Shown here in pieces: positions 7,404 to 64,000 of a stretch of 64,000 nt of DNA. This DNA is from Planctomycetota bacterium (GTDB lineage Bacteria > Planctomycetota > UBA1135 > GCA-002686595): NCBI GenBank assembly GCA_029259635.1, contig JAJDEU010000051.1, forward strand, positions 1 through 64,000, read 5' to 3'. A program made the position numbers and the translations under genes. The notes beneath the pieces were generated by a model that was not told where the DNA came from, made no database searches, and saw only the letters and a list, made by a program, of their open reading frames with translations. Every line of letters starts with the position of its first letter. Position 1 is the stretch's first letter.

Positions 7404-7604
7404 AGAGACGCTGCCTGCGGTGGCGCCGACTCGGCCTTTCGGCAGTCGTTGCGTAAAAAAGCGGACGGGCGGGCGGGTGTGCAGGAGACTCATGGAGGGG
7501 GCGACTATTCTAGTGTTCGGCGTGGTGCTCACAACCCGAGGCTTGTGACTCCTCGGGGGGGGCTGGAGGGCCACCGGGGTCGTCGGGTGCGGAGGTAGCG
7601 GGGC

Positions 7605-10553
7605 TTAGAGCTTCTTATCCAGCCAGAGGAAGCGCTGGCGCAGGACATCGTCGCCGCAGGCTTCGCTGATTTCGGCCAGGCCGGGGGAGAGATCCGACTT
7701 GAATTGCTTGAGGATGGCTTGAGCACCGGCGATCCTCTTTCCGTCAACGAGGCTCCACTGGTAGTGGGCGTAGGCCAGCTCGAATTTGAGCTGGTACCAA
7801 TCACAGAGCCATTTTTCCGAGCGGTCCTCAAGCGTTTGAAGCCGGTCGGTGGCCAGCGGGAAGGCTTCCTCGCCGCCCACACCGGGGATCTCAATCATTT
7901 GGCTCTCGTCGCCCTCGACCCAACCGGAGATCGCGCGGGCGTAGTTGCGCTGGGTACGGCTCGACGGCGGCTTCGTCTTATTGCCCATCAGCTCCGTGAG
8001 AAGTTCCGCGGCATCGCGCACCTCTTTCAGCTCGAGCAGTGCGTGGGCCAGGTTGGGCTTCACCGAAGTAGTGAGCGCGTTTTGTACCTCTTGGCTCTCG
8101 TCGGAACCGAACTGATTGAGCGCGCTTCGAAGCAGTCGCTTCACCGTGGGCCACTCGGAGAGTTCGGTCCACAGGCGAGACTCGATCCGAATGTTGTTGA
8201 GCTTCGGCTTGCCCGCGAGCTCGTTGTAGAGCCCGAGGTTGACCGCCATCGAACGGGTCAGTCCCGCGATCGGCCCGGTCTCGTTCTTTTTCAGCGCCTC
8301 TTCGCGCAGGTCGCGGGTGACCTTGTAGATCTCGTAGGCGCCGATACCCGTCCAGCGATCGTCCTTGAACTCTTCGACCAAGCGGTCGCGACGCTTTTCC
8401 GCCGCCTCGAGATCGCCGAGCTTCAGGAAGGAACTCAGAGAGATGAAGATCGTCTTGGGTGCGAAGGTGTTCTGTTCGGAGAAGTCGTCGGCATAGCCGT
8501 CGAGCCACTCGAGCGCCGTCTCGTAGGAGCCACTGCCCGTCTCGGCGGCGTTGTAGTGAATCAGACCGCCGTAGTAGCGAGCGAGTGCCATCGCCTCGGT
8601 GCGACGTTTCTTGCCGCTCTCGGTCGTGGGCGCACGCACGGGATCGGTCACGTAGTCCTGTAGATACGCCTCGAGCTCGGCGAGGGCCTCGTCGGGCTGA
8701 TCCACTTTGCTCAAGCAGACCGCGGCGTAGGCGAGCGCTTTCTCGTACTCGTCCGCATTGCCGGGCACCTGAAGGAAACGCTCGCGCGCATCTTCGTAGT
8801 CCTTCGACTGGTAAGCGCTCTCCGCCTGCGAGTAGAGGATGTTGCCCGCGCCGCCGCCCTTGGCGAACTCGACGACCTGGTCTTGGGATTCGCGGAAGAG
8901 CGCCTCGAGCTGCGCATCTTCTCCAGCGCCGCGTTTGACTGCCTTGATCGAGTTGTGGAACTGCTTGGCGTTCTGCAGGTCGAACTTGGGGTCGCCCACC
9001 CAGCGCGTGTCGAGGGCCATGCGGAAGGCCATCGCCGCTTCGAGATTGCGCGAGGTCTTTTGAAAGCTGCGACCGATGTAGTAGATGACTTCGGGACCGA
9101 CGCGGGTCCGCGTGGCTTGATCGCCGGATTCGAGAACGGAGAGCACGCGCTTGAAGCCTTCAATCGCCTCGGCATAACGCTCCTGATAGAACATGCCCTG
9201 CGCGGCCTCGAACAAAATCTCGGGATCCACGGCGACGCCGCGATCGATGATCTCGGCGATCAAGCCCTGTGCGAGCAGCTGCAGCGAGTTGCCGCGGTTG
9301 TCGCGATTGACCTCTTGCGCAAACTCAAGGGCGAGGTCGATGGCCGCGCGCGAGTTGCGACGATTCTTGAAGCCCGCATCGCGCATCTCTTCACGCGTCT
9401 GGAACCAGACCATCTCGCCCTTGTCTCCGCCGACATAGCCGCCGGAGTTCATCAGGGCTCGGCCCGCAGAGAGTTGCGAGAGGTAGCCGTCGGGCCGGCT
9501 GACGCCAAAGCCGTAGATGTCCTTGCTGTTCTGAAAGTGCAGCGCGTAGCGGCAGGCTTCTTCGATCTCGCCAAAGCCGAGGTAGGCGTCGATCAACGGT
9601 CCGGTGCCTCGGTCGACAAAGGTCCAGAGCGCCTCTTGCGTTCCTGGCGGCAGGTCGTCGAAGCCGTTGTCGACCGCGCGATCCTCGGCGCTCGAAGGCA
9701 CCGAGTTTTCGACGACGTAGTTGAGGTAGTCAGCGCCATCGCTGAACTCGCCCATCTCGATGTAGACGCGTCCCTCGAGGAGGTAGGCCAGGCGTCCCCA
9801 TTCGCTGTCCTCGCTCGCCGAATCGGCGACCTCTTCCAGAGTGGAGATAGCTTGATCGAAGAAGTAGGTCCCGTCATCGGAGACCTGCGCCATGGTCAAT
9901 AACATCTGGCTCGTGTTGAGCATCAGCCGGAACTTCTCGCGTTCGAGCGTATTCGTCGCGCCCTCGAGCTCGCGCTCTTCGTCGATCTCGGCGTCGAGCC
10001 TGGTGGTGAGATCCGACGTGTCCCCGACGGCGTCCGTCAGGACGTCCATGAGGAGCGTGCGCAGCTCGACGGCGCGATCGCCGACGGCTTCGGTGTAGAG
10101 CTCAAAGACTTCCGTGCCGAAATTCTTCGCGAGCGCGACCCGGTTGCGCTTGGCCTGCCCGAGGTTTTCGGCGAACTTGAACTCGTCGATGTATTCGGCA
10201 TAGGAGCGGAGCGCCTTCTCATAGAGCTCAAGCTTGCGCTCTTCCTCCCGTTCGCGACGGGCACTGGTGGCGAAGATTTCACACCGAGTGAGACCGATCT
10301 CCTCTTTGATCGAATCGCTGACATCCTCTTGCTTGATTCCGTCGAGCACGGTCTCGGCCAACTCGACGAACTGCCAATCCTGAGCAAGTCCTCGAGCTAG
10401 TCGAAGCTCCTCGCGAGTTTGACGGTCGGAGTTCTGCCGCGAAGGCGCTGAACAAGCCTTGGCGGGGGACCCGATCAGCAGCACGCTAGCTGTGATGAGG
10501 GCGACGGCCGCGAGAGGCGGGAGAAAGCGAAGCAACGGGCGAGAAGTGTTCAT
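7605..10553 (-). CDS. Large secreted TPR-repeat protein
   Basis: A 982-aa protein with an N-terminal signal peptide (hydrophobic LAAVALITASVLLIGSPAKAC). The Cys after AKA could be lipidated, but the lipobox is atypical. The rest is almost entirely helical tandem repeats of TPR type, for example RLAYLLEGRVYIEMGEFSDG, AAQGMFYQERYAEAIEGFKR and EALAELEAYLQDY. Charged segments are common and no enzyme motif is visible. It is the first gene after the 315-base gap behind secretin 2 and is followed after about 200 bases by the smaller TPR gene and exbB. It probably acts as a periplasmic scaffold for the ExbB/ExbD-secretin assembly; that role is inferred from gene order only. Confidence 0.8.
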   Translation of the reverse strand: MNTSRPLLRFLPPLAAVALITASVLLIGSPAKACSAPSRQNSDRQTREELRLARGLAQDWQFVELAETVLDGIKQEDVSDSIKEEIGLTRCEIFATSARREREEERKLELYEKALRSYAEYIDEFKFAENLGQAKRNRVALAKNFGTEVFELYTEAVGDRAVELRTLLMDVLTDAVGDTSDLTTRLDAEIDEERELEGATNTLEREKFRLMLNTSQMLLTMAQVSDDGTYFFDQAISTLEEVADSASEDSEWGRLAYLLEGRVYIEMGEFSDGADYLNYVVENSVPSSAEDRAVDNGFDDLPPGTQEALWTFVDRGTGPLIDAYLGFGEIEEACRYALHFQNSKDIYGFGVSRPDGYLSQLSAGRALMNSGGYVGGDKGEMVWFQTREEMRDAGFKNRRNSRAAIDLALEFAQEVNRDNRGNSLQLLAQGLIAEIIDRGVAVDPEILFEAAQGMFYQERYAEAIEGFKRVLSVLESGDQATRTRVGPEVIYYIGRSFQKTSRNLEAAMAFRMALDTRWVGDPKFDLQNAKQFHNSIKAVKRGAGEDAQLEALFRESQDQVVEFAKGGGAGNILYSQAESAYQSKDYEDARERFLQVPGNADEYEKALAYAAVCLSKVDQPDEALAELEAYLQDYVTDPVRAPTTESGKKRRTEAMALARYYGGLIHYNAAETGSGSYETALEWLDGYADDFSEQNTFAPKTIFISLSSFLKLGDLEAAEKRRDRLVEEFKDDRWTGIGAYEIYKVTRDLREEALKKNETGPIAGLTRSMAVNLGLYNELAGKPKLNNIRIESRLWTELSEWPTVKRLLRSALNQFGSDESQEVQNALTTSVKPNLAHALLELKEVRDAAELLTELMGNKTKPPSSRTQRNYARAISGWVEGDESQMIEIPGVGGEEAFPLATDRLQTLEDRSEKWLCDWYQLKFELAYAHYQWSLVDGKRIAGAQAILKQFKSDLSPGLAEISEACGDDVLRQRFLWLDKKL

Positions 10554-47577: not shown

Positions 47578-49043
47578 GTGTTTTTCGTCTGAAGAATTTT
47601 GTCGATGCAACCGGCGCGCTTCCGATCTCGGGAGACTTGGAGACCGAGCTCACTGGCGTGTGCACGGACTCGCGCTCGATTCGGCCGGGCGAGTTGTTCG
47701 TCGCGCTCGACGGGCCGAACTTTAAGGGCAATGACTACGCGCGCGCCGCAAGCAAAGCGGGCGCGGGCGCGATTGTGCTGAAGGCCAGCGCTTCGGACGG
47801 TGCGGGATCGTCCGCAGAACTGAGAGAAGGCGATGAGTTCTTCAGTCCCGCGTGTCCGGTGATCTCCCACTCCAATCCGCGTCGCGCACTGGGCGACTTC
47901 GGAGGATGGTATCGATCGACGCTGGAGGCCAAGGTGATTGGCATCACGGGCTCCTGCGGCAAGACCACGACGAAGAGCATCCTCGTCAAGCTGCTGGAAC
48001 CCCTGCTTCCGACTGTCGGCTCGCCGCGCTCCTACAACAATGACATCGGTGTGCCGTTGACGTTGGCGCTCGCACACAAAGATACGCGCGCGCTGGTCGT
48101 CGAGATGGGGACCAATCAGCCGGGCGAGATTGCGAGCCTGTGTCGCATCGCTCGTCCGGACATCGGCTTGATCACGAATATCGGCGCGTCCCACTTGGAG
48201 GGACTCGGCTCGCTGGAAGGCGTCGCTGAGGAGAAGGCCGACCTCGCGCGTTCGCTTCCCGAAGAGGGCTTTCTCGTGATCAACGAGGACTGCCGCTTCT
48301 CCGGTTTTCTGCGCAGTGAAACCAGCGCCGAAGTGCTCAGCTTTAGCATCGACGGCGCCGGCGACCTGAACGCGACCGACGTGTACTTCCACTCGGGCGG
48401 AACCGTATTCCGTCTCAACGGACACGACGTGAGCTTTCCACTGCTCGGCACTCACAACGTTCAGAACTGTCTCGCCGCTCTGTGCGTCGGAATCGGCCTC
48501 GGCTTCGAGCTCGAGGAGCTGCTCTCCGCAGTCTCCTCGCTGACCGGTGGACGTCAGCGTATGGAGCGCTCGGACCTCAATGGCTTGACCGTTTTCGACG
48601 ACAGCTACAACTCGAACCCGGACTCGGCGCGCGCCGCCGTTCGGGTGCTCGCGGGGCTGCACGGCTTCGGCCGACGAGTCTTGGTGCTCGGTGACATGTT
48701 GGAGCTCGGCGAGCATGCTGCCGAGCTGCATAGGGAGATCGGTCGCGAGGCGGTCGCCTCGGGAGTGGACTGTTTGATTGGCGTGGGGGAGTTGGCGGCT
48801 TCGGCCGTCGAGGGCGCGCGCGAAGCGGGCCTTGCCGAAAGTGCGGCGACTCACCTTGCGACGACCGATGATGTTCTGGCGGCATCCGGAGCTCTCCTGA
48901 AAGAGGGCGATGTCGTCTTGGTGAAGGGCAGCCGCGGAATGGCTCTCGAACGTCTGGTCAAACAGCTGCGCAAAGACTGGGGCCTGCGACCCTCATCCTC
49001 AGCTCCTAATCATTCACGTGAGCGAGAAGGAGTGCGCGGGTGA
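47574..49043 (+). CDS. murF: UDP-N-acetylmuramoyl-tripeptide--D-alanyl-D-alanine ligase MurF
   Basis: A 489-aa Mur ligase that attaches D-Ala-D-Ala. It has the N-terminal domain TDSRSIRPGELFVALDG, a P-loop GITGSCGKTTTK, and EMGTNQPGEI. Central DSYNSNPDSA (usually DAYNANP) is the MurF-specific substrate motif, and VLGDMLELG follows. The C-terminal tail of about 20 residues is Ser/Arg-rich. ATG overlaps the murE stop; the stop overlaps the mraY GTG. Confidence 0.95.
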   Translation: MSVFRLKNFVDATGALPISGDLETELTGVCTDSRSIRPGELFVALDGPNFKGNDYARAASKAGAGAIVLKASASDGAGSSAELREGDEFFSPACPVISHSNPRRALGDFGGWYRSTLEAKVIGITGSCGKTTTKSILVKLLEPLLPTVGSPRSYNNDIGVPLTLALAHKDTRALVVEMGTNQPGEIASLCRIARPDIGLITNIGASHLEGLGSLEGVAEEKADLARSLPEEGFLVINEDCRFSGFLRSETSAEVLSFSIDGAGDLNATDVYFHSGGTVFRLNGHDVSFPLLGTHNVQNCLAALCVGIGLGFELEELLSAVSSLTGGRQRMERSDLNGLTVFDDSYNSNPDSARAAVRVLAGLHGFGRRVLVLGDMLELGEHAAELHREIGREAVASGVDCLIGVGELAASAVEGAREAGLAESAATHLATTDDVLAASGALLKEGDVVLVKGSRGMALERLVKQLRKDWGLRPSSSAPNHSREREGVRG

Positions 49044-50185
49044 TTCCCGGCATTCTCGACGAGCTCTTTGGCATCCGCTTGTTCGGATACATCTCGTTCC
49101 GAATGGCGTTGGCTGCGCTGACAGCTTTTGCGCTAGCGCTGTGGTGGGGGCGCCCGACGATCGCATGGCTGCGTAGCCACCGCGTTCAGGAAGACGTCTC
49201 CAAGACGGACGCCTACGAACTGGCGCGTCTCAACAAAGAGAACAAGAAGCACGAGACGACGACGATGGGCGGCAGCTTCCTGATCGCCGCGCTGCTCACG
49301 TCGGTTCTGTTGTGGGCCAGGCTCGACAATATTCACGTGGTTCTCGGCGTGATCTTGGTGGCGGGTTTTGCGGCCGTCGGATTCATCGACGACTTCAAGA
49401 AGCTGACGATTCCCGAATCCAAAGGTCTGTCGCGTCGCTCGAAGATGCTCGGACTCTCGATCGTGACTTTTGGCTGCTTGGGCGCGCTCTGCTACTACGC
49501 GCGGGCTAGCGGCCGGGACACGCTGCTCGAGCTCTATCCGCCGTTGTTCAAGGACTCGGTGATTCCATTGCCCGCCTGGGGATTCGTCGGCATCGCGATC
49601 TTCCTGGCCTTTGAGTGGTTCGTTGTCGTCGGCAGCGCAAACGCGACCAACATCACCGATGGCCTGGACGGCTTGGCCGCCGGTTGTCTGATCATTTCGG
49701 GACTCACGCTCAGCGTCTTCTGCTACGTCACCGGGCGCTACGACTGGACGGCTTATCTCAACCTGCCCCACGTTGTCGCGGCTTCCGAGATGGCCGTCGT
49801 CGGCGGCGCACTGGTCGGCGGATGTCTCGGCTTCCTCTGGTACAACGCCTATCCAGCGCAAGTCTTCATGGGCGACTCCGGCTCGCTTCCGCTCGGCGGA
49901 CTGCTCGCTTGGATGGCACTCGTCAGCAAGCAAGAACTGGTTCTCCCTCTGATCGCTTGCGTCTTCGTGCTCGACCTCGGCTCGAGCTGGCTTCAGACTT
50001 TTTATTACAAGCGCACAAAGAAGCGCGTGTTCACCTGCGCGCCGGTTCACCACGGGCTTCAACTGACCGGCGGCTTCTTCAAGCCCGCGGATAAGCCCTG
50101 GCACGAAGTTCAGATTGTAATTCGTTTTTGGATCGTCGCTGCCTGCGGCGCTATGGCCAGCCTGGCTCTTTTGAAGGTGCGTTGA
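49040..50185 (+). CDS. mraY: Phospho-N-acetylmuramoyl-pentapeptide-transferase MraY
   Basis: A 381-aa polytopic inner-membrane enzyme, GTG start, that makes lipid I from UDP-MurNAc-pentapeptide and undecaprenyl phosphate. About ten transmembrane helices. Diagnostic motifs: TTMGGSFLIAA, GFIDDFKKL (catalytic Asp pair), SANATNITDGLDGLAAG and VFMGDSGSLPLGG. The HxHH-type motif is APVHHGLQ. The TGA overlaps the ftsW ATG by one base. Confidence 0.95.
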   Translation: MIPGILDELFGIRLFGYISFRMALAALTAFALALWWGRPTIAWLRSHRVQEDVSKTDAYELARLNKENKKHETTTMGGSFLIAALLTSVLLWARLDNIHVVLGVILVAGFAAVGFIDDFKKLTIPESKGLSRRSKMLGLSIVTFGCLGALCYYARASGRDTLLELYPPLFKDSVIPLPAWGFVGIAIFLAFEWFVVVGSANATNITDGLDGLAAGCLIISGLTLSVFCYVTGRYDWTAYLNLPHVVAASEMAVVGGALVGGCLGFLWYNAYPAQVFMGDSGSLPLGGLLAWMALVSKQELVLPLIACVFVLDLGSSWLQTFYYKRTKKRVFTCAPVHHGLQLTGGFFKPADKPWHEVQIVIRFWIVAACGAMASLALLKVR

Positions 50186-51393
50186 TGGGAGCGAGAGCAA
50201 GCCGGCGTAAGAACCGAGATCATCCCAGCCAGCTCACCATCGCGGGCTTCTTGGGTGGAATCGCCGCTCGAGCGGAGACACGCGATCCCGGTGTGCCTGC
50301 GATTCGCCTGCTTGGAGTCGTCGTCATCATGATGGGCTTTGGCGCGCTGATTCAGGCCAGCCATGCCGCGACGGTTCACGATCCGCATGGCTTCTCAAGC
50401 ACCGTCATCGAACAGGTCATGTCGCGCGTCGCGGGGCTCGTCGCAATCTTGATCGGTTACCGAATGGGACCCGCCGGCATCCGCCGCTTCCTTCCGCTCA
50501 TGACGGCCGTTGCCCTCGTGATGCTCGTGCTCTGCTACATCGAGCCCTTCGCCGTCGTGCGCAATGGCGCGCGCCGCTGGATCGATCTAGGGGTTCGCTT
50601 TCAGCCCTCGGAAGTCGCGCGCATGGTCATCGTCCTGTGGATCGCCGACCGGTGCGTCCAGCTGGGTTCACGCGTCTCCGAGTTCAAACGCGGCGTCCTG
50701 CCGATGCTCGCGCTGGTCATGGCCTTCTTCGCTCTGGTGCTGGGGGAGACCGACCTCGGTGGTTCGCTCTTGCTCCTGATTTGCGCGCTCTCGACCATGT
50801 GGGTCGGCGGAGCGCGCGCGATTCCCATGGCGGTGTCGATGGCGGCCGTTGGCGGCGGCGCATTCATCGGCGCGACCGCCTTCATTCCCTACATCGGAAA
50901 CCGCATCGGCATGTGGTTCGGCGATGTACAGAACGCTCAAGTCACCGAAGCGGTTCGCGCCATCGGCGGCGGCGGAATGTGGGGGGCGGGACTCGGACAG
51001 GGCACCGCGCGTAGCGCCGGCGTTCCGTATCTGCAGTCCGACTACGTCTTCGCTCAAATCGGCGAGGAGTTTGGGCTGTTCGGCATGCTGCTTGTACTCA
51101 GTCTCATCCTCGCCTTTCTTTGGTTCTCGCTACAGCTGGTGCTCTCGATTCGGAGCCGCTACGAAGCCCTGGCGTCGTTCGGTCTGTTGGTTTCGGTGGG
51201 CATTCAAGCCATGCTTCATGTGCAGGTGGTCTCGGGGTTGGCTCCTCCCAAGGGAACGATCCTGCCGTTCATCTCGGACGGCGGCACCTCACTGGTTGTC
51301 TCTTCTCTCGCTGTGGGATTGGCTCTGGGCTCCGCTCGAAAACGCTCCAAAGCGGCTTCGAAGGAGTCCTGGATCCCAGCTCCCTCTTCCTAG
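50185..51393 (+). CDS. ftsW: FtsW/RodA/SpoVE family peptidoglycan glycosyltransferase
   Basis: A 402-aa SEDS-family polymerase with about ten membrane spans. N-terminal 30 residues are basic and cytoplasmic. Family motifs are present: NGARRWIDLGVRFQPSE, LGETDLGGSLLLL (catalytic Asp), SDYVFAQIGEEFGLFG and APPKGTILPFISDGGTS. Location between mraY and murG and beside ftsI supports FtsW rather than RodA. ATG 50185 is set by overlap with the mraY stop; a longer in-frame start would overlap mraY. Confidence 0.92.
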   Translation: MGARASRRKNRDHPSQLTIAGFLGGIAARAETRDPGVPAIRLLGVVVIMMGFGALIQASHAATVHDPHGFSSTVIEQVMSRVAGLVAILIGYRMGPAGIRRFLPLMTAVALVMLVLCYIEPFAVVRNGARRWIDLGVRFQPSEVARMVIVLWIADRCVQLGSRVSEFKRGVLPMLALVMAFFALVLGETDLGGSLLLLICALSTMWVGGARAIPMAVSMAAVGGGAFIGATAFIPYIGNRIGMWFGDVQNAQVTEAVRAIGGGGMWGAGLGQGTARSAGVPYLQSDYVFAQIGEEFGLFGMLLVLSLILAFLWFSLQLVLSIRSRYEALASFGLLVSVGIQAMLHVQVVSGLAPPKGTILPFISDGGTSLVVSSLAVGLALGSARKRSKAASKESWIPAPSS

Positions 51394-51438
51394 TTCTTCT
51401 CTTCCCTTTTTTTTCAGGCTCGGTACCGGAGTCCACAC

Positions 51439-52443
51439 ATGCAACCCATCGAACGTGTCGGTGTCTTTGCTCTTCTCTTTCTAGTCGTCATGGTCGTAGC
51501 CGTCTGGCTTTTCGATCGCGAACCGGCGGATCTCGCTACGGAGGTTGCCGCGAATGAGCGGGCGCTCCCCGCTGAATCGGCTCGCTCAACGACCTCGACT
51601 CGGGTGCCTCAACTCGGGCAGATGACGGAGAGCTCGCGGCGCAAGACCAGTGCCCCGCAAAAGCCCGCTACGAGCGATTGGAAGTCGCGTAAACAGCTGC
51701 GCGAGTTGGCCCTCGCGGAGCAGGCACAGGCTGCGAAGGCTCCCGCCGGGCTTCCTGTCTCCACGCCTAAGCAAGCGCTGACCGCGGCCCCCAAGCCGAG
51801 CCTCGAGACGCGAACGAATGGCGGTCGCCACATCGCTAGCAATGATCCTTCGAGGACCAGCGCCTCGAAGAAAAAGGCCGAAGTGCTTCAACCCAAAACG
51901 TCCAAAGTCGGGACGGAAAAGGCCAGAAGGAGCCCATCGGAGAGCACGTCTTCGAAGCCCGGGCAGAGCACCCTTAGTACTCGTGAGTACGTGGTTCGGG
52001 CTGGGGATACGCTCAGCGAGATCTCGGAAAGCCAGCTGGGTACCGCTACGCGTTGGAAGGAGCTTGAGGCGCTCAATAACGTCTCGGCCAATCAGCTCAA
52101 GGTCGGAATGAAGCTTCGGCTCCCGAGCAGTAAGACAATCGCCAAGGACGCGACTTCGAAGCCCGCTGTTCTGAAGCCCAAGGCCGCTTCCACGGCGCCG
52201 ACCAAGGCGGGTTCTTACCGTGTGGGGAGCGGGGATAGCCTGTGGTTGATCGCCAAGCGCCAGCTGGGCGACGGCAATCGCTGGTCGGAGATCGCCGCGC
52301 TCAATTCGTCGATCAATCCGGACAAGCTCGTCGTGGGCTCCTCGCTCGTTATGCCGACTGGAGCTGCTCAGCCGAAGGCAACCCAGATCGCGAAGAGTAC
52401 GACGCCCGCCCGTTCGACCTCGAGCAAGCCGCGCGTACGATGA
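51439..52443 (+). CDS. Membrane-anchored protein with two LysM domains
   Basis: A 334-aa protein with one N-terminal transmembrane helix (about 7-24, VGVFALLFLVVMVVAVWLF). A long disordered Ala/Pro/Ser/Lys-rich linker follows. Two LysM domains bind peptidoglycan: about 183-229 (YVVRAGDTLSEISESQLG) and about 259-306 (YRVGSGDSLWLIAKRQLG). No hydrolase or peptidase domain. It is embedded in the dcw cluster between ftsW and murG. The topology resembles a tether between the inner membrane and the cell wall, and so could substitute for a divisome component missing here. That is inference from position. Confidence 0.85.
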   Translation: MQPIERVGVFALLFLVVMVVAVWLFDREPADLATEVAANERALPAESARSTTSTRVPQLGQMTESSRRKTSAPQKPATSDWKSRKQLRELALAEQAQAAKAPAGLPVSTPKQALTAAPKPSLETRTNGGRHIASNDPSRTSASKKKAEVLQPKTSKVGTEKARRSPSESTSSKPGQSTLSTREYVVRAGDTLSEISESQLGTATRWKELEALNNVSANQLKVGMKLRLPSSKTIAKDATSKPAVLKPKAASTAPTKAGSYRVGSGDSLWLIAKRQLGDGNRWSEIAALNSSINPDKLVVGSSLVMPTGAAQPKATQIAKSTTPARSTSSKPRVR

Positions 52444-52691
52444 GCCGCCGATTCCACCAACTGCTGTTCACCGGGTGCCTCTTGATCGGCATCCTTCAAG
52501 CGCCAGCTGCCCTGAGTTCACTCGAAGCGGGTTGGGACGGCGCCTATCCCAGCGAGCCTTCGGGAACCCTCTCGCTGGCGGGGACTCTGAGCGCCCGCGA
52601 AAAACAAGCGGACGCGAAGTCCGATTCCGCGGAGAAAAAATTAGAAGGTTTAGAAGAAACTGCGCCTTCGATTTCACGCGCCGGTTTCTAA
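52440..52691 (+). CDS. Small secreted protein in the dcw cluster
   Basis: An 83-aa protein. The ATG overlaps the LysM gene stop (ATGA). A signal peptide (FHQLLFTGCLLIGILQAPAALS) is followed by a short mature part rich in Gly/Ser then Lys/Glu. No family recognised. Tight coupling to the LysM gene argues that it is expressed and related in function. Confidence 0.55.
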   Translation: MSRRFHQLLFTGCLLIGILQAPAALSSLEAGWDGAYPSEPSGTLSLAGTLSAREKQADAKSDSAEKKLEGLEETAPSISRAGF

Positions 52692-52800
52692 CCAAAGCCG
52701 GATGAAGCTTTTCTAACTCGGGGGGGCGACGGTCCCCGCCACACGCGCAGGCACCTTGTCCACTCTGCACTCAACCCTTTATGCGAAGACGCGCTCTTTG

Positions 52801-53988
52801 ATGGGTGAGCATGGGGAAGCAGGCGCTGCACCGGAATCGGATCGGCGCGTGGGATTGAGATTGGCCCTGGCGGGAGGCGGAACCGGAGGCCACGTCGTTC
52901 CCGGAACCCACCTCCTGCGACATTTGAAGGGCAGTGGGGGGCTCGACTCCTTGCTGTGGTTTGGGGCCGGTCGCACGGCCGAGCGCCGCGCCCTCGATGG
53001 AGTTGAGGCTCACCTGGATGCGGAGGTCTCCTTCACCAAGGTGGACCTGCCGCTGGAGTCACCCGCCGGCGGCGCGCCGCGACTTCGCGATCTCGCGATC
53101 CGGTTCGCGCCGGCCACTCGAAAAGCGAGAGCCGCGCTCCTCGCCGACAAAACCGAGGTCGTGTGCGGGCTCGGCGGATTCACCTGCTTGCCGGTGGTGC
53201 TGGCCGCGCGTTCGCTGCGCTTGCCCACCGCGCTTCTCGAGATCAACGCGGTGAAGGGGAAAGCCACCCGCTGGCTGAGTCCGCTCTGCGAGCGCGTTCT
53301 TCACGCTTGGCCATCCACGATGCCGCCTGCTGAGCGCCTTGATCCAGATGCGGGAAAGCATCGAGTCATTGGTCCGCCGCTCGGACCCGCCTTCACTGCG
53401 CCTCCGCTAGCCGAACAGGCTCGTCGCGCTGCCGTCGAGGCTCTTGGGTTCGATTCGGACCGACTACTGGTGCTCGTTCTCGGCGGGAGCCAAGGAGCGC
53501 AGGCGCTCAACTCCTTGATGCGTGAACGCCATGCGGAATTCGAAGAGCGAGGCTGTGCCGTGCTGCACCAGGTTGGACCGGGCCGTCTGGAGGAAGGCGG
53601 GCAAGCGTCGCGTCACTACTACGCGAGGGAGTACGTCGACGATGTCGCCGGAACTCTGCGCGCGGCGAGTCTAGTGATCTGCCGTGGTGGCGCGTCGACC
53701 TTGGCCGAAGTTGCCGCCGCGGGAACCCCGGCCGTGGTGGTTCCGTATCCCCATCATCGCGACGGACACCAGCGAGCGAACGCCGAAGCCCTTGGCAATG
53801 GGGTTGTCCTCGTTGAGGAGAGCCGCGGACAGACGGCAATCTTGAATGCCGCGCTCGATCTACTCGGCCAAGAGTCCGAGCTCGAGCGACGCGGGCAGAC
53901 TCTTCGAGACGCCATTCCTAAGACTGGGGCAAGTCGCCTTTTCAAAGAGTTGAGCCTTCTTTCGACCTCTCGCGTTTCGCACGATTAG
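52801..53988 (+). CDS. murG: UDP-N-acetylglucosamine--N-acetylmuramyl-(pentapeptide) pyrophosphoryl-undecaprenol GlcNAc transferase MurG
   Basis: About 395 aa from ATG 52801; a TTG at 52756 would add 15 residues. Peripheral GT-B (family GT28) enzyme making lipid II. It has LALAGGGTGGHVVPG (first G-loop), VCGLGGFTCLPVVLAA, LVLGGSQGAQALN and CRGGASTLAEVAAAGTPAVVVPYPHHRDGHQ (donor binding), all as expected for MurG. Confidence 0.93.
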   Translation: MGEHGEAGAAPESDRRVGLRLALAGGGTGGHVVPGTHLLRHLKGSGGLDSLLWFGAGRTAERRALDGVEAHLDAEVSFTKVDLPLESPAGGAPRLRDLAIRFAPATRKARAALLADKTEVVCGLGGFTCLPVVLAARSLRLPTALLEINAVKGKATRWLSPLCERVLHAWPSTMPPAERLDPDAGKHRVIGPPLGPAFTAPPLAEQARRAAVEALGFDSDRLLVLVLGGSQGAQALNSLMRERHAEFEERGCAVLHQVGPGRLEEGGQASRHYYAREYVDDVAGTLRAASLVICRGGASTLAEVAAAGTPAVVVPYPHHRDGHQRANAEALGNGVVLVEESRGQTAILNAALDLLGQESELERRGQTLRDAIPKTGASRLFKELSLLSTSRVSHD

Positions 53989-54079
53989 CAGGTCGGCGAT
54001 CGAGAGAGGCCCCTTGCTCGGTCGCGCAACGACTCGGAAAACCACGAGCTTCTTTCCTCCTCTATTCTTTGCCCGCCAC

Positions 54080-55594
54080 ATGAATGACGACCACGGCTTC
54101 GAACAGACTTCTGCCGAACAGGCCAGCTCAGAAAAGGCCTGCAACTTGCTGCCCGGGCTTCCCACGCGCATTCACCTGCTCGGGATAGGGGGAGCCGGTC
54201 TCTCCGCGGCGGCCCGAATCCTCGAAGCGCGCGGACACGAGGTCAGCGGACACGACCGCGAGGCCAGCGTCGCGCTCGCGCGCATGACCGAGCTCGGCAT
54301 TTCCGTTCGAATCTCCGATTCAGCAGCGGAGGACCTACCCAGCGACGCGGCCCTGGTGGTCCACTCGGCCGCCATCGCGCGCACCGATCCGCAAATCCTG
54401 CGCGCGCTGGAGCGCGGCTTGCCGGTCATCAAATACGCCGAGCTCCTGGCACGCCTCGCTCCGCCCCAGCGGACACTGGCCGTCGCCGGCACGCATGGCA
54501 AGACGACCAGCGCCTGGATGCTGTGGTTTGCGCTCGAGGGAGTGCGTGGCGACGACGGCAGGGGGCCAGCACCTGGATCTCTGATCGGCGGAACCTCGCG
54601 CGACCTCGGAGTGAACGCCATCCCGGGTGACTCAGATGGTTGGTTTGCCGTCGAAGCCTGCGAGTACGACCGCAGCTTCCTGAAGCTCTCTCCCTTCGGC
54701 GCCATCGTGACCAATGTCGAGGGCGATCACCTCGACTACTACGGATCGGAAGCGGCGATCGAAGAAGCCTTCGCGCGCTTCTGTTCTCGTGTGGATTCGC
54801 GCGGCCTGCTCGTGCTCGGCCGCGATGTACCCGAGTGCGTCGAGCACGCGTCGAGTTGTACGGTCTGGCGTCTCGGCCGCGAGCTCGAGGTCGACCTGTT
54901 GGGTGAGCGCAAAGGCTACTTCCGCTTCCGCTTGCGTGGACCGGGTTGGAGCATCCCCGAAGTTGCGCTCGAAGTCCCCGGCGAGTTCAACGTCGACAAT
55001 GCCGCTCTCGCGCTGGCCCTCTCCATCGGTGTCGGTATGCCCGGAGCGGGACTGCCGGCCAAGCCGGACCCGCTCAGCGATCCCGGCCGCGGTATCGAGA
55101 TGTTCACCGGAGTCGGGCGCCGTTTCGAGTACTGGGGTGACGAAGAGGACATCGTCGTCGTGCACGACTACGCTCATCACCCGACCGAGGTCCGCGTCAC
55201 GCTCGAGACCGCGCGACGCACTATGCCGGGCGTGCCGCTGCACGTCTTGTTTCAACCGCACCAGCACAGCCGGACGGCGCGCTTCCTCGATGAGTTCTGC
55301 GAGAGCTTGCGCTCGGCCGATCGGGTGGTCGTCGCCGACGTCTTTGGCGCTCGCTCGCATATCGACGGCGAGCGCTTCGCCGGCGCCGAGGCGATCGTCG
55401 CCGGCCTGCGCGCGCGCCTGGTCGACGCCGAATACGGGGGCGATCTAGCCAGCAGCACTCAAATATTCGAGAGCGGGCTGCCTTCTTCCTGTGCGGCACT
55501 GGTGCTCGGCGCCGGTGACATTGACAATGTTCGCGATGAACTCCTCGACAACTTGGCCCTGCGCGGCGCTGGCGAACGCAAGTCTATCCAGTAG
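54080..55594 (+). CDS. murC: UDP-N-acetylmuramate--L-alanine ligase MurC
   Basis: About 504 aa from ATG 54080; a TTG at 54014 has a better Shine-Dalgarno (GAGAGAGG) but adds an odd 22 residues. MurC adds L-Ala to UDP-MurNAc. It has HLLGIGGAGLSAAARIL, the P-loop VAGTHGKTTSAWML, VEACEYDRSF, NVEGDHLDYYG and YAHHPTEVRVTLE, all family motifs. It ends within the overlapping start region of murB. Confidence 0.92.
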   Translation: MNDDHGFEQTSAEQASSEKACNLLPGLPTRIHLLGIGGAGLSAAARILEARGHEVSGHDREASVALARMTELGISVRISDSAAEDLPSDAALVVHSAAIARTDPQILRALERGLPVIKYAELLARLAPPQRTLAVAGTHGKTTSAWMLWFALEGVRGDDGRGPAPGSLIGGTSRDLGVNAIPGDSDGWFAVEACEYDRSFLKLSPFGAIVTNVEGDHLDYYGSEAAIEEAFARFCSRVDSRGLLVLGRDVPECVEHASSCTVWRLGRELEVDLLGERKGYFRFRLRGPGWSIPEVALEVPGEFNVDNAALALALSIGVGMPGAGLPAKPDPLSDPGRGIEMFTGVGRRFEYWGDEEDIVVVHDYAHHPTEVRVTLETARRTMPGVPLHVLFQPHQHSRTARFLDEFCESLRSADRVVVADVFGARSHIDGERFAGAEAIVAGLRARLVDAEYGGDLASSTQIFESGLPSSCAALVLGAGDIDNVRDELLDNLALRGAGERKSIQ

Positions 55595-56504
55595 AACCAC
55601 GCTCAAGATCGGTGGGGAGGTCGAGGTCTTGCTCGAGCCCACCGATCCCGAAGAGCTGCGCTTGGCCTGGATGGCCGCGCATGAAGCCGGGGTTCCGGTT
55701 CGCTTGCTCGGGGGCGGCGCCAACCTCTTGATCGAGGATGGAGTCTTGCCCGGTGTCGTCATCGCCACCGCGCGCATGCGCAGGATCTTTCGACTCGGCG
55801 ATCGCTGGGAAGGCGATCCCTACATGCTGGATGAAGAGGGGGGAGCTGAGCCCGCGCCCGAAAAAACGACGGGCCTCGTCGCGTGGTGTGGCGCGACTCT
55901 GCCCGCGCTGGTGCGCACGGCCTACGACCTCGGCTGGACGGGCCTGGAGGGACTGATCGGAGTGCCGGGGCATCTCGGCGGCGGTGTGCGAATGAACGCC
56001 GGTGGAAAGTGGGGCGAACTGTGGGACGTGATCGAGAGCGTGCGAGTTATCGGAAAGGGTGGCGAAGTCTTCGATCTCGATCGCAAGGACTGCTCACCCA
56101 GCTACCGCAATGGCAACCTCGGCGATCAGATCGTGACGGGAGCCGTCTTGCGGCTCGAGCCCGCGCCGAAGCCCGAAGTCTTTGAGCGCATGAAGGCCTA
56201 CCTCGCGGAGAAGAAGGCGGCACAGCCGGTGACGGAATCGTCGTCGGGCTGCATTTTCAAGAACCCCGATCCGGAGCTCTCCGAAGGGCGCTCGGCCGGA
56301 CTCCTGGTGGAGCAAGCGGGAGCGAAGGGGCTCACTCGCGGGGGAGCCATCGTCAGCCCGCTGCACGGGAACTTCATTCTCAATCGAGGCGGCGCGAAAG
56401 CCGCCGACGTGTTGGGCCTGATCGATGAGGTGGTCGAGCGCGTGGCCGACAAGACCGGGATTCCGTTGGAGCGGGAAGTCGAGATCTGGCGGAACGAAGG
56501 CTAG
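55527..56504 (+). CDS. murB: UDP-N-acetylenolpyruvoylglucosamine reductase MurB
   Basis: About 325 aa. FAD-dependent enzyme reducing enolpyruvyl-UDP-GlcNAc to UDP-MurNAc. It has NASLSSRTTLKIGG near the N-terminus, LGGGANLLI, GLIGVPGHLGGGVRMNAGG (FAD site), SSGCIFKNP with the catalytic Ser, and QAGAKGLTRGGAIVSPLHGNFILN. The catalytic Glu is in REVEIW. The start must lie before 55594 because the conserved NASL segment is inside murC, so the genes overlap by about 60-68 bases (ATG 55527 or 55536). Confidence 0.92.
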   Translation: MFAMNSSTTWPCAALANASLSSRTTLKIGGEVEVLLEPTDPEELRLAWMAAHEAGVPVRLLGGGANLLIEDGVLPGVVIATARMRRIFRLGDRWEGDPYMLDEEGGAEPAPEKTTGLVAWCGATLPALVRTAYDLGWTGLEGLIGVPGHLGGGVRMNAGGKWGELWDVIESVRVIGKGGEVFDLDRKDCSPSYRNGNLGDQIVTGAVLRLEPAPKPEVFERMKAYLAEKKAAQPVTESSSGCIFKNPDPELSEGRSAGLLVEQAGAKGLTRGGAIVSPLHGNFILNRGGAKAADVLGLIDEVVERVADKTGIPLEREVEIWRNEG

Positions 56505-59470: not shown

Positions 59471-59568
59471 TACCGAACCCGGTTCAGATCTAAACTTTAG
59501 GGCGTAGGGGCTCCGCCCCTACGCCCTAAAGTTTAGATCTGAACCGGGTTCGGTATTACACCTTCCGC
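59458..59568. repeat. 111-bp near-perfect palindrome spanning two convergent stop codons
   Basis: 53 bp (59458-59510) are exactly repeated in inverted order (59516-59568); a further C-G pair leaves a 3-base loop (TCC), 54 + 3 + 54 bases. It covers the stop of the amidotransferase (59468-59470) and of oleD (59533-59535). The tip contains GGGCGTAGGGG/CCCCTACGCCC, strong enough for a bidirectional terminator, flanked by AAACTTTA/TAAAGTTT. Confidence 0.9.
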
Positions 59569-60588
59569 AATTCGCGACGTGAGTTCGGCGAGCGTCACGC
59601 GCTCCGAGTACGCGAGGTCGCGCCGGATCGGTTCGAGACTGTAGGAGTGCGAGGTCGACATCTGCATGGCGACGAAGCGCGTCATCGGCGGTTCACCCTT
59701 GAGGGGGAGCGCGCGCCAGATCGCTTCGCAAAAGGCGCCGATGAAATAGGCGGTCCGCCGCGAGACGTGGCGGTTCGGCGCCGGAACGCCGAGCTGCTCA
59801 AAGAGGCTCGCGACCCACTCCCAGATGAGAACCGGCTGCTCTTGCCCGACGAAGTAAGCCCGACCGGCACAGGCGGCTCCGGGTCCGAGCGCACGCGCTG
59901 CGCAGAGGTGAGCGTGCGCCGCATTCTCGACATCGGTGACGCTGACTTCGTTCTTTCCGTCGCCGATGATCATCAAGCGCCCTTGGCGCGCGCGCTCGAT
60001 CAAGCGCGGCATGATGTGAGGATCACCGGGGCCGACGATGAGATGCGGGCGCAAGGCGCAGGTCGAGAGCGTCGTACCGCTTGCGCTCACGCTTCCATTG
60101 GCCGCCAACATCTCGCGCTCGGCGATCGCTTTCGTCTCGGCGTAGGCGCATAAGAACCGCGTGGCGAGCGGAAGGTCATTACCGGCATTGACGTGATCGC
60201 CGCCGTCGAAGCAGACGCTCGGCGAGCTCGTGTGAATGAGACGCGGGACTCCGTTTGCCAGCGCCGCCGCGATCACGTTGCGCGTGCCGATGACGTTCGC
60301 GTTGTAGAAGTCTTCGCGCTTGCCCCAGACACCGGCGAGCGCGGCGACGTGAAAGATCGCGTCCATGCCGACGGCTGCCGACGCCAGCGCGGCGGCGTCG
60401 GCGAGGTCGAGCGAGATCGCGCGGACGCCCGCGGGCAGCTGCGCGCGCTCGGCAGAGCGGCTGGCGACGGTGACCTCGACGCCCTCACCGAGCAGCTGGC
60501 GGACAATGGCGGACCCGAGGAAGCCGGCGCCTCCCGTTACCAGTGCGCGTCGCAACCCGAGTCCCATCGTCCGCTCGCTCGTGCTCAT
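59533..60588 (-). CDS. oleD: OleD-like NAD(P)-dependent oxidoreductase (SDR, 3-beta-HSD type)
   Basis: A 351-aa extended SDR. Rossmann motif GGAGFLG (19-25), catalytic Y149-x3-K153 (YAETK). Resembles OleD, which reduces the 2-alkyl-3-ketoacid made by OleA to the beta-hydroxy acid in long-chain olefin synthesis. The ATG overlaps the oleC stop (ATGA), supporting co-expression. The last 10-12 codons lie in the palindrome. Confidence 0.8.
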   Translation of the reverse strand: MSTSERTMGLGLRRALVTGGAGFLGSAIVRQLLGEGVEVTVASRSAERAQLPAGVRAISLDLADAAALASAAVGMDAIFHVAALAGVWGKREDFYNANVIGTRNVIAAALANGVPRLIHTSSPSVCFDGGDHVNAGNDLPLATRFLCAYAETKAIAEREMLAANGSVSASGTTLSTCALRPHLIVGPGDPHIMPRLIERARQGRLMIIGDGKNEVSVTDVENAAHAHLCAARALGPGAACAGRAYFVGQEQPVLIWEWVASLFEQLGVPAPNRHVSRRTAYFIGAFCEAIWRALPLKGEPPMTRFVAMQMSTSHSYSLEPIRRDLAYSERVTLAELTSRIAEGVIPNPVQI

Positions 60589-62237
60589 CGCACGCGGGTC
60601 GTCGCCCATGCTTTGAGCTCGCCGCGATGGATCTTGGCGTTGTGGCGGACGTCGACGGGGAAGTCCGAGCGGAAGAGCACCTCGCGGAGCTCGACGCGAT
60701 TCGAAAGCTGCGCTTGATGATCGGCGATTTCGCGAGCGAGCGCTGTGCGTTCGCGTCCGCTCGGCGGCTTGACGGGCTCGACCACCAGTACGGGCAACTC
60801 TTCGCCGGGCTCGCCCACACCGACCAAGGCACTGCGCCGAACCGCCGGATGCGTGTTGAAGATGTTCTCCTGCGGAACGGGCAGAACCGTGCCGCTCTCG
60901 GTCTGTAGACGATGCGATTTGCGTCCGTAGAACCACAGGCGGCCTTCGCGGTCGAATTTGCCGATGTCTCCGATGCGGTGCCAGACCGCTTCGCCGTCCG
61001 GGATCTTCGACAGCCGGTTGTGCTCGGGCTCGAACTTGTAAGAGCGAGTGACCGCCGGACCGCGAACGACAATCTCGCCCGCTTCACCCGGCTCGACTTC
61101 GAGCTCGTCCGACCAACTCTCGATTGCATCGTCGGTGATGCGAATCAATCGACAGTCGATGCCCGGCGCGAGCGCGCCGACGCAGGTTCCGGAGCCGGAC
61201 TCGGCCGCCTCACGTCGCTCCAAAATCTCGCGACCCGAGATCGATGCGACCGGAAGAGACTCGGTCGCGCCGTACGGCGTGAACACATCGGCTTCACCTT
61301 CGAGCACTCGGTGGAAACCCTCGACGAGCGCGGGCGGAACCGGAGCGCCGGCGATCAAGACGCGCTTGAGGCTGGGCAGTTTTTCGTTGCGCTCGATCAA
61401 CCACGGAACGACCCGTCGCCAGATCGCGGGCGAGCCGAAGGTTAGAGTCGCGTTGTTCTCAGTGATGGCGCGCGCGATATTTTTCGGCTCGCAGCGACCC
61501 GGGTGCGACGGGTCGATGTCGGGGAACACGCTGGTCATGCCGAGCGCGGTATCGAACAGCGCGAACAGCGGAAAGCAAACGACGTCGACTTCGCCCGGCC
61601 GAAAGTCGTACAGCGCGCGCAGCGCTTCGAGCTGGGCACGGAAGGTCTGGTAGGTGTAGACGACGCCCTTCGCGGGGCCGGTGCTTCCGGACGTGAAGAG
61701 GATGGCTGCTTCGTCATCGAGAGCGGGACTCGCGAGCTCGAAGGGCGCAGCCCCGGCGAGGTTGCGCCCGAGCTTGCCCGAGCGCGGAACCAAGAAGCTT
61801 CTCTTGACGCTTCGAAAGGCACTCCGAAAGACGGAGCGCGCGATTAGTGCGGCTCGAATTCCGACCAGACCGCTCGGCTGAATTCGTTCGACGCACCCGA
61901 GCAGCTGCTTGCGACCCATACCCGGATCGATCAAGACCGGAATGGCGCCGAGCTTGAAGAGCGCGTAGGTGACGGCGATCAGCTCGATGCCCGCTCGGAC
62001 AAACACACACACGCGATCGCCTTGCCCGAACCCGCGTTCGGTAAGCGCGTAGGCCAACGCATCGCTCTCCGTCTCGATGCCCGCAAAGCTAATCTCGCGC
62101 CAATTACCTCCGCGCGCGGGAACTCGAACGGCGATCCCCTTCGGGTTCGCGCTGGCTTGCTCGCGCAAATCGACGGCGACGCTCGGGTTGGCGGGCGGTG
62201 TGCCAAAAACCTCGAAGGGGTCGAGCGCGGGCTTCAC
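60585..62237 (-). CDS. oleC: OleC-like AMP-binding enzyme (beta-lactone synthetase)
   Basis: A 550-aa ANL-family adenylating enzyme, GTG start overlapping oleB. A3 motif LFTSGSTGPAKGVVYT, A5 YGATESLPVAS and A7/A8 region HRIGDIGKFDREGRLWFYGRKSHR are present. The C-terminal Lys is in HNAKIHRGEL. OleC converts beta-hydroxy acids to beta-lactones. Order oleB-oleC-oleD agrees with known ole clusters. Confidence 0.82.
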   Translation of the reverse strand: MKPALDPFEVFGTPPANPSVAVDLREQASANPKGIAVRVPARGGNWREISFAGIETESDALAYALTERGFGQGDRVCVFVRAGIELIAVTYALFKLGAIPVLIDPGMGRKQLLGCVERIQPSGLVGIRAALIARSVFRSAFRSVKRSFLVPRSGKLGRNLAGAAPFELASPALDDEAAILFTSGSTGPAKGVVYTYQTFRAQLEALRALYDFRPGEVDVVCFPLFALFDTALGMTSVFPDIDPSHPGRCEPKNIARAITENNATLTFGSPAIWRRVVPWLIERNEKLPSLKRVLIAGAPVPPALVEGFHRVLEGEADVFTPYGATESLPVASISGREILERREAAESGSGTCVGALAPGIDCRLIRITDDAIESWSDELEVEPGEAGEIVVRGPAVTRSYKFEPEHNRLSKIPDGEAVWHRIGDIGKFDREGRLWFYGRKSHRLQTESGTVLPVPQENIFNTHPAVRRSALVGVGEPGEELPVLVVEPVKPPSGRERTALAREIADHQAQLSNRVELREVLFRSDFPVDVRHNAKIHRGELKAWATTRVR

Positions 62238-63205
62238 TCGCCGCTCTCGGGAGTGTCCTGAAGGAACCGCGAGATCCAGCGCAGGACTTTTGGCCCTTCA
62301 TCTTCGAGAATCCAGTGGCCAGCGTCGGGAACGGTGTGGACGCGAGCCCCTTCGAACCGCCGCTCCCACTCCTCGCGAAACTCCGGCGTAAAGCACCAGT
62401 CGCGATCACCCCAGATGATGCACATGGGCGTGTCCTTGAACTCTCGCAGGGCACCGTCGGTGGCGGCGAGCTCGTCGAAGGAAGGGTGGGAAGGTGCGAG
62501 CGGGATATCGCGCACGAAAGCCATCGTCGCGACGCGGTTGTGCCAGTCGCCGTAAGGAGCGAGATAGCCGCGGCGAACCTCGTCAGTGATGTTCTCGGGG
62601 CGCTCGGTGGCCATCGAGAGAGCGGCCAGCGAGAAGGCGCCAAAGCCGCGCACTGCCAGAGGGCCGACGATGGGCCAGCGACAGACGGAGATGCGCAGCG
62701 GAATCGAGGTCGAGCAAAAGGCCGCCGTGTTCATGACGACGATGCGAGCGATGCGCTCCGGGTGACGGCGAGCGAAGCCCATTCCGATTGCGCCGCCCCA
62801 GTCGTGCAGCACGAGCGTGATGTTCTTGAGGTCGAGCTCAAGGACGAGGCGTTCAATATTGAGCGAGTGCTGTTCGAGTGTGTAGTTGTAGTCCTGCGGC
62901 TTGTCGGAAATCCCACAGCCCATGTGGTCGGGCGCGACGACGCGATAGTGAGTCGAGAGTCCGCTAATTAAGCCGCGGAAATAGAACGACCAGGTCGGGT
63001 TGCCGTGGAGACACAAGACCGGAGCGGCGGTTGGTGAACCCTCGTCGACGTAGTGCATGAACTGCTCGTCGCCTACGTCGAGGAAGTTCGGCTCGAAGGG
63101 GTAGAGCGTGCGGAAGGAGGCGACGAACTCGGCGGCTTCGTCGCGTCGTGCGCGGCTGGCGAACTCTTCGCGAACCGTCGGCGGAGTCGAGGAGGTGGCA
63201 TTCAT
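62234..63205 (-). CDS. oleB: OleB-like alpha/beta hydrolase (beta-lactone decarboxylase)
   Basis: A 323-aa alpha/beta hydrolase of the haloalkane dehalogenase type. HGNPTWSFYFRGLI is the oxyanion and halide-site-like region. Nucleophile D135 in LVLHDWGGAIG, H297 in VPDAGHWILEDEGP. Asp rather than Ser as nucleophile is the OleB/haloalkane dehalogenase signature. OleB turns the beta-lactone into the cis-olefin with loss of CO2. ATG 63205 overlaps the phosphopantetheinyl transferase stop; a longer start at 63271 is less likely. Confidence 0.82.
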   Translation of the reverse strand: MNATSSTPPTVREEFASRARRDEAAEFVASFRTLYPFEPNFLDVGDEQFMHYVDEGSPTAAPVLCLHGNPTWSFYFRGLISGLSTHYRVVAPDHMGCGISDKPQDYNYTLEQHSLNIERLVLELDLKNITLVLHDWGGAIGMGFARRHPERIARIVVMNTAAFCSTSIPLRISVCRWPIVGPLAVRGFGAFSLAALSMATERPENITDEVRRGYLAPYGDWHNRVATMAFVRDIPLAPSHPSFDELAATDGALREFKDTPMCIIWGDRDWCFTPEFREEWERRFEGARVHTVPDAGHWILEDEGPKVLRWISRFLQDTPESGE

Positions 63206-63792
63206 GCGGGCGATTCCTCGAGCTTGACTCGAATGGGCAACACGTCTTCGAGAGAGCAGCTGGAGAGCCAATACTCACCAATTCGTTGAGAGACGACTTC
63301 GTGCCGAGTGCCGTCGAAGTCGAACAGGAGCTGTCCAGCTCCGCTCGATGCGACCAGGCGGCAGCGCGAGATTCCGGTCAGGCCGAGCCCCAACTTTTTT
63401 AAGACGGCTTCTTTGCCGGTCCATAAGAGAACGACTGTCGAGGCGTTCGCATCGTTCGCCGCGCCCAAGAGGGCGAGCTCCTCCCGCGAAGCGCACTCCT
63501 TGGCGGCGCGCAAGCGCGGACGATGAATACACTCCGCGTCGATGCCGATCGGCGCGCGCGAGATCGCGGCGGCGGCAAAGCCCTCGGTGTGCGTCTTCGA
63601 GACGTGCCAGCCCACAGGAGCCTCCGGAGCGCCGAGCGGTGTCGAACTGATCTCAAATGCCGGGGCACCGACTCGCGCGATGGCATCTTGCAGCGCGACT
63701 CTTGAGAGCGAGCGGAGCAGCTCGATGCCCGGCCGGCCGAGCAGGGCGGGTTCGCGCGGAATCGTGACGTAGCTGAGCGCGGCGGAATTCAT
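63202..63792 (-). CDS. 4'-phosphopantetheinyl transferase (Sfp/AcpT-type)
   Basis: A 196-aa enzyme. Motifs: [25 protein letters not shown] (Mg2+ ligands) and [15 protein letters not shown] (W-x3-E-x2-K-x-G-x-G). It charges acyl carrier proteins, including carriers of polyketide and PUFA synthases. ATG 63792 overlaps the stop of the SDR gene (TCATGA); a longer start would extend over that gene. Position next to oleBCD suggests the pathway uses its own carrier protein, probably encoded to the right of the window. Confidence 0.8.
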
Positions 63793-64000
63793 GACTCCAC
63801 TCGTGTGGCGCGTTTCACCACGTCGCTGTCGAAATAGTTGACACCCATGCCCGCGTCGGCGACGAGGCCTTGAGCGTTGATGCCGCTCGAGCGCTCGGAC
63901 AAGAGAAAGAGCGCGAGGTCCGCGACTTCGCGCGTTCCGAGCCCGCGCTTTCGCAAGGTGCACGACTCGGCGTAGAGGTAGCTCTCGAGATAGCCCGGAA
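63789..64000 (-). CDS. SDR/enoyl-ACP-reductase-like protein, C-terminal part only
   Basis: The gene runs off the right edge; about 70 C-terminal residues are visible. [20 protein letters not shown] and [14 protein letters not shown] match the C-terminus of FabG/FabI-type SDRs (the usual segment is A-x2-FL-x-SDxxxxITGx2-x-VDGG). It has DAG in place of DGG. Because only the tail is visible, an SDR of other function cannot be excluded. Confidence 0.7.

Follow-up and report, generated by a model that had tools for sequence, protein, structure and literature searches.

The right-hand end of a 64,000-nucleotide stretch from a Planctomycetota bacterium (bases 1-64000 of the 219,696-base contig G000:C47, referred to here as the window) holds part of an operon that probably encodes a dedicated, dissociated (type II) synthase of the polyunsaturated fatty acid (PUFA) type with the OleABCD pathway as its exit, the most likely product being the hydrocarbon C31:9, accompanied by C31:8. 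This reading is based on gene content, operon structure, active-site residues, conservation across phyla, co-occurrence with OleA, exclusion of PfaA and a split in the OleA tree, from which we infer the chemistry and the product. That the hydrocarbon would be polyunsaturated is well supported by the pattern in which the gene set replaces the PUFA synthase Pfa in related genomes.

All genes of the operon lie on the minus strand, and coordinates above 64000 continue the numbering of the window. The window cuts the gene of a FabI-like enoyl-ACP reductase (ENR, 273 amino acids, 63789..64610), of which it holds the 3' part (63789..64000). This is followed by genes for an Sfp-type phosphopantetheinyl transferase (PPTase, 196 amino acids, 63202..63792), the beta-lactone decarboxylase-like alpha/beta hydrolase OleB (323 amino acids, 62234..63205), the beta-lactone synthetase-like AMP-ligase OleC (550 amino acids, 60585..62237, with a GTG start) and the 2-alkyl-3-oxoalkanoate reductase-like OleD (351 amino acids, 59533..60588). 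Successive genes overlap by 4 bp, at 63789-63792, 63202-63205, 62234-62237 and 60585-60588, and the PPTase gene, oleB and oleD each start with ATG. An earlier note on this DNA had described the five as overlapping minus-strand genes, had called the first, a short-chain dehydrogenase/reductase, enoyl-reductase-like, and had expected oleA past the right edge together with a ketosynthase and carrier proteins; all of these expectations were borne out. The operon extends 7.7 kb beyond the window on the same contig and strand, with genes for a FabZ-like dehydratase (DH, 64607-65125), two CrtI-like flavoproteins (FAD2, 65122-66603, and FAD1, 66603-68033), an acyl carrier protein (ACP, 68080-68352), a FabF-like ketosynthase (KS, 68376-69611), a MarR/GbsR-like regulator (69608-70333) and OleA (70619-71659). 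Further overlaps join DH to ENR, FAD2 to DH and KS to the regulator (4 bp each) and FAD1 to FAD2 (1 bp). From the regulator to oleD the genes form a single run of 11 in which no gap exceeds 46 bp, and oleA lies 285 bp upstream of this run.

The synthase proteins resemble enzymes of fatty acid synthesis but are set apart from them. KS, DH and ENR are members of the FabF, FabZ and FabI families, respectively, with scores below the corresponding equivalog cut-offs; ENR, for example, matches the adh_short_C2 profile (PF13561) with 181 bits and reaches 173 bits in the NCBIfam FabI models against a cut-off of 370. The catalytic residues are invariant in the alignment columns of KS (80/80 orthologs) and DH (102/102), and Tyr159 and Lys166 are retained in all 67 ENRs of the module, defined here as KS-ACP-FAD1-FAD2-(KR)-DH-(ENR), where KR is a ketoreductase. 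In the same 67 proteins the first active-site tyrosine of FabI is replaced by isoleucine, leaving the two-tyrosine signature (Tyr146, Tyr156 and Lys163 of the Escherichia coli enzyme) incomplete. Judged by sequence, the module ENRs are a distinct FabI-like subfamily, and the substitution may reflect an altered substrate or chemistry. The PPTase belongs to the Sfp/ACPS superfamily (PF01648, 40.9 bits) and carries the GIDxE and WTGKEA motifs. A complete housekeeping cluster, plsX-fabH-fabD-fabG-acpP-fabF, sits on another contig; ordinary fatty acid synthesis genes were thereby ruled out as the identity of the operon. The genome also contains additional stand-alone KS and KASIII-like genes (L104, G000:C55:12000-28000, and L008, G000:C37:2000-21999) and, in L103 (G000:C26:70000-86000), tandem minus-strand ketosynthase genes overlapping by 4 bp (open reading frames 6764-7984 and 7981-9225), which may form a KS/chain-length-factor pair belonging to another type II cluster, for a polyketide or an aryl polyene.

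All four proteins of the OleABCD pathway of Xanthomonas, Micrococcus and Shewanella are present, with OleB, OleC and OleD clustered. OleA, the only one listed over the cut-off in this genome (418 bits against 285), aligns end to end with the Xanthomonas campestris enzyme (3row) and retains Cys143, His285, Asn315 and Glu117 (X. campestris numbering), four catalytic residues kept in 62/62 aligned OleAs. OleB matches haloalkane-dehalogenase-family models, and its Asp135 and His297 are found in 57/57 orthologs. OleC passes the cut-off of NF006754 (596 against 478 bits) and falls below those of the olefin beta-lactone synthetase models (449 bits, and 509 bits in NF045786 with a cut-off of 900), as does OleD in the 2-alkyl-3-oxoalkanoate reductase model NF042422 (362 against 580 bits); these olefin-specific models are named after the Xanthomonas and Shewanella enzymes. 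What distinguishes the present system from the known pathway is that the operon brings its own synthase, and that its OleA differs in lineage from the OleAs that partner Pfa in the same phylum.

Orthologs of FAD2 were found in 76 of 80 sampled genomes of the family to which the window belongs, but are absent from all 71 that represent the other families in the same class. Most of 20 loci from the family keep the order OleA-Reg-KS-ACP-FAD1-FAD2-DH-ENR-PPT-OleB-OleC-OleD at protein identities of 31-79%, which argues that the arrangement is not due to chance. Other planctomycete families share the KS-ACP-FAD1-FAD2-DH-ENR core, with the ole genes in divergent orientation, upstream of it or downstream of it; such varied placement around a constant core suggests that the two are coupled in function and have not simply kept an inherited position. 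In addition, a FabG-like KR is inserted between FAD2 and DH in 12 loci of these families. In the f39 loci, the conserved neighbours of FAD2 are chaperone and helicase genes rather than pathway genes. A scan of GTDB contigs yielded at least 583 relatives, and the loci of the best 80 were examined: most are from Desulfobulbales, with others from Verrucomicrobiota, Bdellovibrionota, Nitrospinota, Chloroflexota and some planctomycetes. Among these 80, many of which are cut by contig ends, KS, ACP, FAD1, KR and DH recur in 53-70 loci, and several Desulfobulbales loci are colinear as KS-ACP-FAD1-FAD2-KR-DH-ENR-OleA-OleB-OleC-OleD. Ole genes accompany the module in Planctomycetota, Desulfobulbales, Verrucomicrobiota, Bdellovibrionota and Chloroflexota.

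The link between the module and OleA was examined in 392 planctomycete genomes, in which OleA was scored over its cut-off. Both FAD2 and OleA are carried by 96 genomes, FAD2 alone by 2, OleA alone by 50 and neither by 244; put differently, 96 of 98 FAD2-positive genomes are among the 146 with OleA, and the two exceptions are incomplete assemblies (61% and 80%). The distribution of PfaA (TIGR02813, cut-off 1010 bits) is the reverse: none of the 96 genomes with module and OleA has a match over the cut-off (the top score being 647 bits, in G011), in contrast to 27 of 32 tested genomes with OleA and no module, four others of which score 634-892 bits on short open frames. Only 1 of 60 genomes with neither module nor OleA passes. 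The split between module and PfaA has a P-value of 5e-23; like the other co-occurrence P-values it is uncorrected for kinship, to which the swaps within families f32 and f52, where some members carry Pfa and others the module, are least exposed. Within f32, four genomes (G354, G414, G447 and G488; loci L205-L208) differ from the rest, one group pairing Pfa with one kind of OleA and the other pairing the type II module with a kind of its own. Such a non-orthologous replacement lends itself to a comparison of lipids. PfaA-like genes were also seen in two planctomycetes without OleA over the cut-off (G198:C30:62511-65198 and G213:C1116:1228-3879), one of which belongs to f49, a family in which the other members sampled have hydrazine synthase.

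Of 15 cases measured in genomes that lack the module, 13 have OleA and PfaA some 7 kb apart. In planctomycetes, Pfa and the module fill the same slot beside ole genes. The OleA tree mirrors this division: a branch with full support (SH-like approximate likelihood ratio test, SH-aLRT, 100) separates 21 of 22 module-free OleAs from all 60 OleAs of module-bearing loci or genomes, the latter including 18 of 18 that are unlinked to the module. The lone exception among the 22 groups with the X. campestris enzyme, on a long branch; the positions of the latter and of the OleA of a Pfa-positive planctomycete (L253), both on long branches, are uncertain. Across related bacteria the module takes the place of Pfa, the giant omega-3 synthase, and is thus probably a little-recognised second oxygen-free way to polyunsaturated chains. 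A PfaA-like megasynthase as partner of the operon was ruled out in the host genome, whose two type I polyketide synthases (PKSs) reach 306 and 288 bits in the PfaA model against the cut-off of 1010. Of the iterative PUFA/polyketide-like synthase that the earlier note had proposed, the carrier-based set stood, with both KS and ACP in place, and the PfaA- or polyketide-like megasynthase gave way to separate type II proteins accompanied by a pair of CrtI-like flavoproteins. As that note had argued, a carrier-bound substrate is very likely, given the ACP, KS and PPTase of the operon. A separate locus of the genome, L102 (G000:C5:630000-645999), encodes a hybrid of PKS and nonribosomal peptide synthetase (NRPS; 1984 and 1539 amino acids) with NRPS modules and unrelated to Pfa.

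We propose that the PPTase would activate the ACP of the operon, that malonyl units would come from the housekeeping FabD, and that keto reduction would be performed by the housekeeping FabG or by a dedicated KR such as the one that sister loci carry between FAD2 and DH. KS would then extend the chain, DH dehydrate it and ENR saturate it in selected rounds. FAD1 and FAD2 would place the double bonds in cis geometry; the most economical means would be to shift the trans-2 bond to cis-3 and to flip it to cis-2, without consuming the flavin. By ordinary fatty acid arithmetic, a 16:4n-3 chain requires exactly these activities: a 2t-3c isomerisation at C6, 2t-2c at C8, saturation at C10, 2t-3c at C12, 2t-2c at C14 and saturation at C16. 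OleA would join two such chains head to head, taking them from ACP or coenzyme A, after which OleD would reduce the product, OleC form the beta-lactone and OleB decarboxylate it to a long polyunsaturated olefin. The scheme has a counterpart in Shewanella, where a dedicated PUFA-type synthase likewise passes polyunsaturated chains to OleABCD and the OleA substrate from which C31:9 is formed is a predicted 16:4n-3 product of Pfa (PMC6463001). As a type I megasynthase (PfaA-D), bacterial Pfa has FabA-like DH domains that also perform 2,2- and 2,3-isomerisation (PMC9702510), as opposed to the small separate proteins and two CrtI-like flavoproteins found here.

The synthase half matches clusters described by Rattray et al. 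in 2009. Desulfotalea psychrophila, which lacks a PKS, makes C31:8 and C31:9, and its FabF, ACP, FabZ and phytoene-dehydrogenase-like clusters were proposed to serve anaerobic PUFA synthesis; the type II fatty acid synthase (FASII) clusters of this bacterium and Kuenenia comprise FabF paralogues, ACP, FabZ, FabG and CrtI-like proteins (PMC2649909). FabF, ACP, phytoene-dehydrogenase-like proteins and FabZ are all found in the present operon, and the same set occurs in order, with KR, in loci of Desulfobulbaceae and Desulfocapsaceae (for example, L128-L133 and L137). Unlike the clusters of 2009, which the sections of that paper covered here do not tie to ole genes, the operon is coupled to oleABCD and is devoid of radical SAM, methyltransferase and glycosyltransferase genes. 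The FASII set for anammox ladderanes was ruled out, given the absence of radical SAM from the operon and of FAD2 orthologs and OleA over the cut-off from the sampled anammox genomes. The anammox genomes of this phylum are positive for hydrazine synthase, and their CrtI-like matches are distant (107 bits at most). In Desulfosediminicola, the interval from DH to oleDC contains TolQ/TonB/TolB-type genes and no radical SAM gene.

Two roles can be considered for FAD1 and FAD2. Both belong to the flavin amine-oxidase superfamily, which includes flavin-dependent isomerases, with a carotenoid isomerase (the top curated match of FAD1) and carotenoid desaturases as best curated matches. The module brings exactly two extra enzymes and 16:4n-3 calls for two isomerisations, on which account we tentatively read the pair as flavin-dependent, non-oxidative enoyl-ACP isomerases (trans-2 to cis-3 and trans-2 to cis-2) of an oxygen-free type II PUFA route. 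This route would differ from both desaturases and Pfa, extend across five or more phyla and be linked to OleABCD. Alternatively, with the synthase and product unchanged, the two proteins might oxidatively desaturate an ACP-bound saturated or monounsaturated chain, passing electrons to quinone or another acceptor. This seems rather unlikely to us, even though the closest solved structures are carotenoid desaturases: AlphaFold models (predicted local distance difference test, pLDDT, of 90 for FAD1 and 88 for a FAD2 ortholog) are nearest to the gamma-carotenoid desaturase 4rep (template modelling score, TM, 0.73-0.74). We know of no CrtI-type flavin enzyme that desaturates an unactivated saturated chain. 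A post-synthetic desaturase would not require the module's own ENR, DH and often KR, and the number of flavoproteins fits the two isomerisations. Oxidative desaturation by such CrtI-like proteins was suggested in 2009, and the carbon isotope ratios of D. psychrophila were interpreted as indicating monounsaturated precursors (PMC2649909). Conversely, anammox CrtI-like proteins, though only distant relatives, showed no CrtI activity (PMC4790861).

Aryl polyene clusters make conjugated polyenes with type II KS, ACP, DH and KR sets, and CrtI-like proteins work on conjugated chains; it is conceivable, if improbable, that the module likewise builds a conjugated chain ending as a polyene hydrocarbon or pigment. 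Aryl polyene and other highly reducing type II PKS clusters also have a single operon that combines PPTase with type II KS, ACP and DH. The operon here differs from such clusters in having two CrtI-like proteins, an ole exit, no chain-length-factor partner of KS and a dedicated ENR, which most intact loci retain, and the module replaces PfaA, a maker of methylene-interrupted chains. We consider it about equally doubtful that the PUFA is destined for membrane lipids, with the neighbouring OleABCD using ordinary acyl-CoAs and the linkage reflecting shared regulation only. Pfa systems do supply phospholipids too, and in some families the ole genes lie elsewhere, but a purely membrane role would need no OleA, at odds with its presence in nearly all FAD2-positive genomes, and the OleA type tracks the module even when the two are unlinked. 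Finally, every domain comes from fatty acid synthesis or carotenoid-type families, and the operon might consist of ordinary fatty acid genes lying by chance beside an ole cluster. This is very improbable indeed: it is contradicted by the co-occurrence data, the module being missing from most of the phylum, tied to OleA and recurring as a block in several phyla, with the complete housekeeping cluster at another place. Nor did the arrangement that the earlier note had regarded as fatal to its idea, ordinary fab genes to the right and oleA in a cluster of its own, appear. For the conjugated chain, the C31:8 and C31:9 of D. psychrophila (PMC2649909) are a further point of disagreement.

Several observations weigh against a PUFA-type synthase feeding OleABCD. 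Genes for a KR and a malonyltransferase are missing from the cluster of the window itself, KS and ENR fall under the FabF and FabI cut-offs, and FAD1 and FAD2 are equally near the CrtI-type desaturases 4rep and 4dgk and plant phytoene desaturase (PDS). In f32 and many Desulfocapsaceae, among other cases, the ole genes lie apart from the module, and no ole genes were found in the stretch read around the sampled Nitrospinota module loci. The D. psychrophila locus is absent from the loci fetched, its match to the module resting on close relatives and PMC2649909. For the organism of the window and the fetched module-bearing genomes, we infer the product chemistry from the genes.

Elsewhere in the window, on the plus strand at 49040-56504, we recognised by eye a planctomycete cell-wall run (mraY-like, ftsW-like, a LysM protein, and murG-, murC- and murB-like genes), with a threonyl-tRNA synthetase-like gene downstream of it.

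The OleABCD half of the operon was already known and the synthase half matches the clusters of 2009; within the open-licence literature, we found no later paper linking clusters of that type to ole genes. What is new is the coupling to Ole, the finding that the module takes over from Pfa, and a proposed, testable function of FAD1 and FAD2 as two double-bond isomerases, making the operon a type II counterpart of the Pfa-Ole route. It addresses a question standing since 2009, namely the origin of C31:9 in organisms without Pfa genes, such as Desulfotalea and many planctomycetes, by naming a compact set of about 11 enzymes that could be moved into a host and by predicting which flavoproteins set the double bonds. 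The route would offer biotechnology an oxygen-independent source of PUFAs and hydrocarbons, may be a source of the C31 polyene biomarkers of anoxic waters and sediments, and provides a simpler relative for considering the ladderane clusters of anammox bacteria. For the planctomycetes themselves, it explains the distribution of OleA, nearly every sampled copy of which is paired with either Pfa or the module, and never clearly with both.

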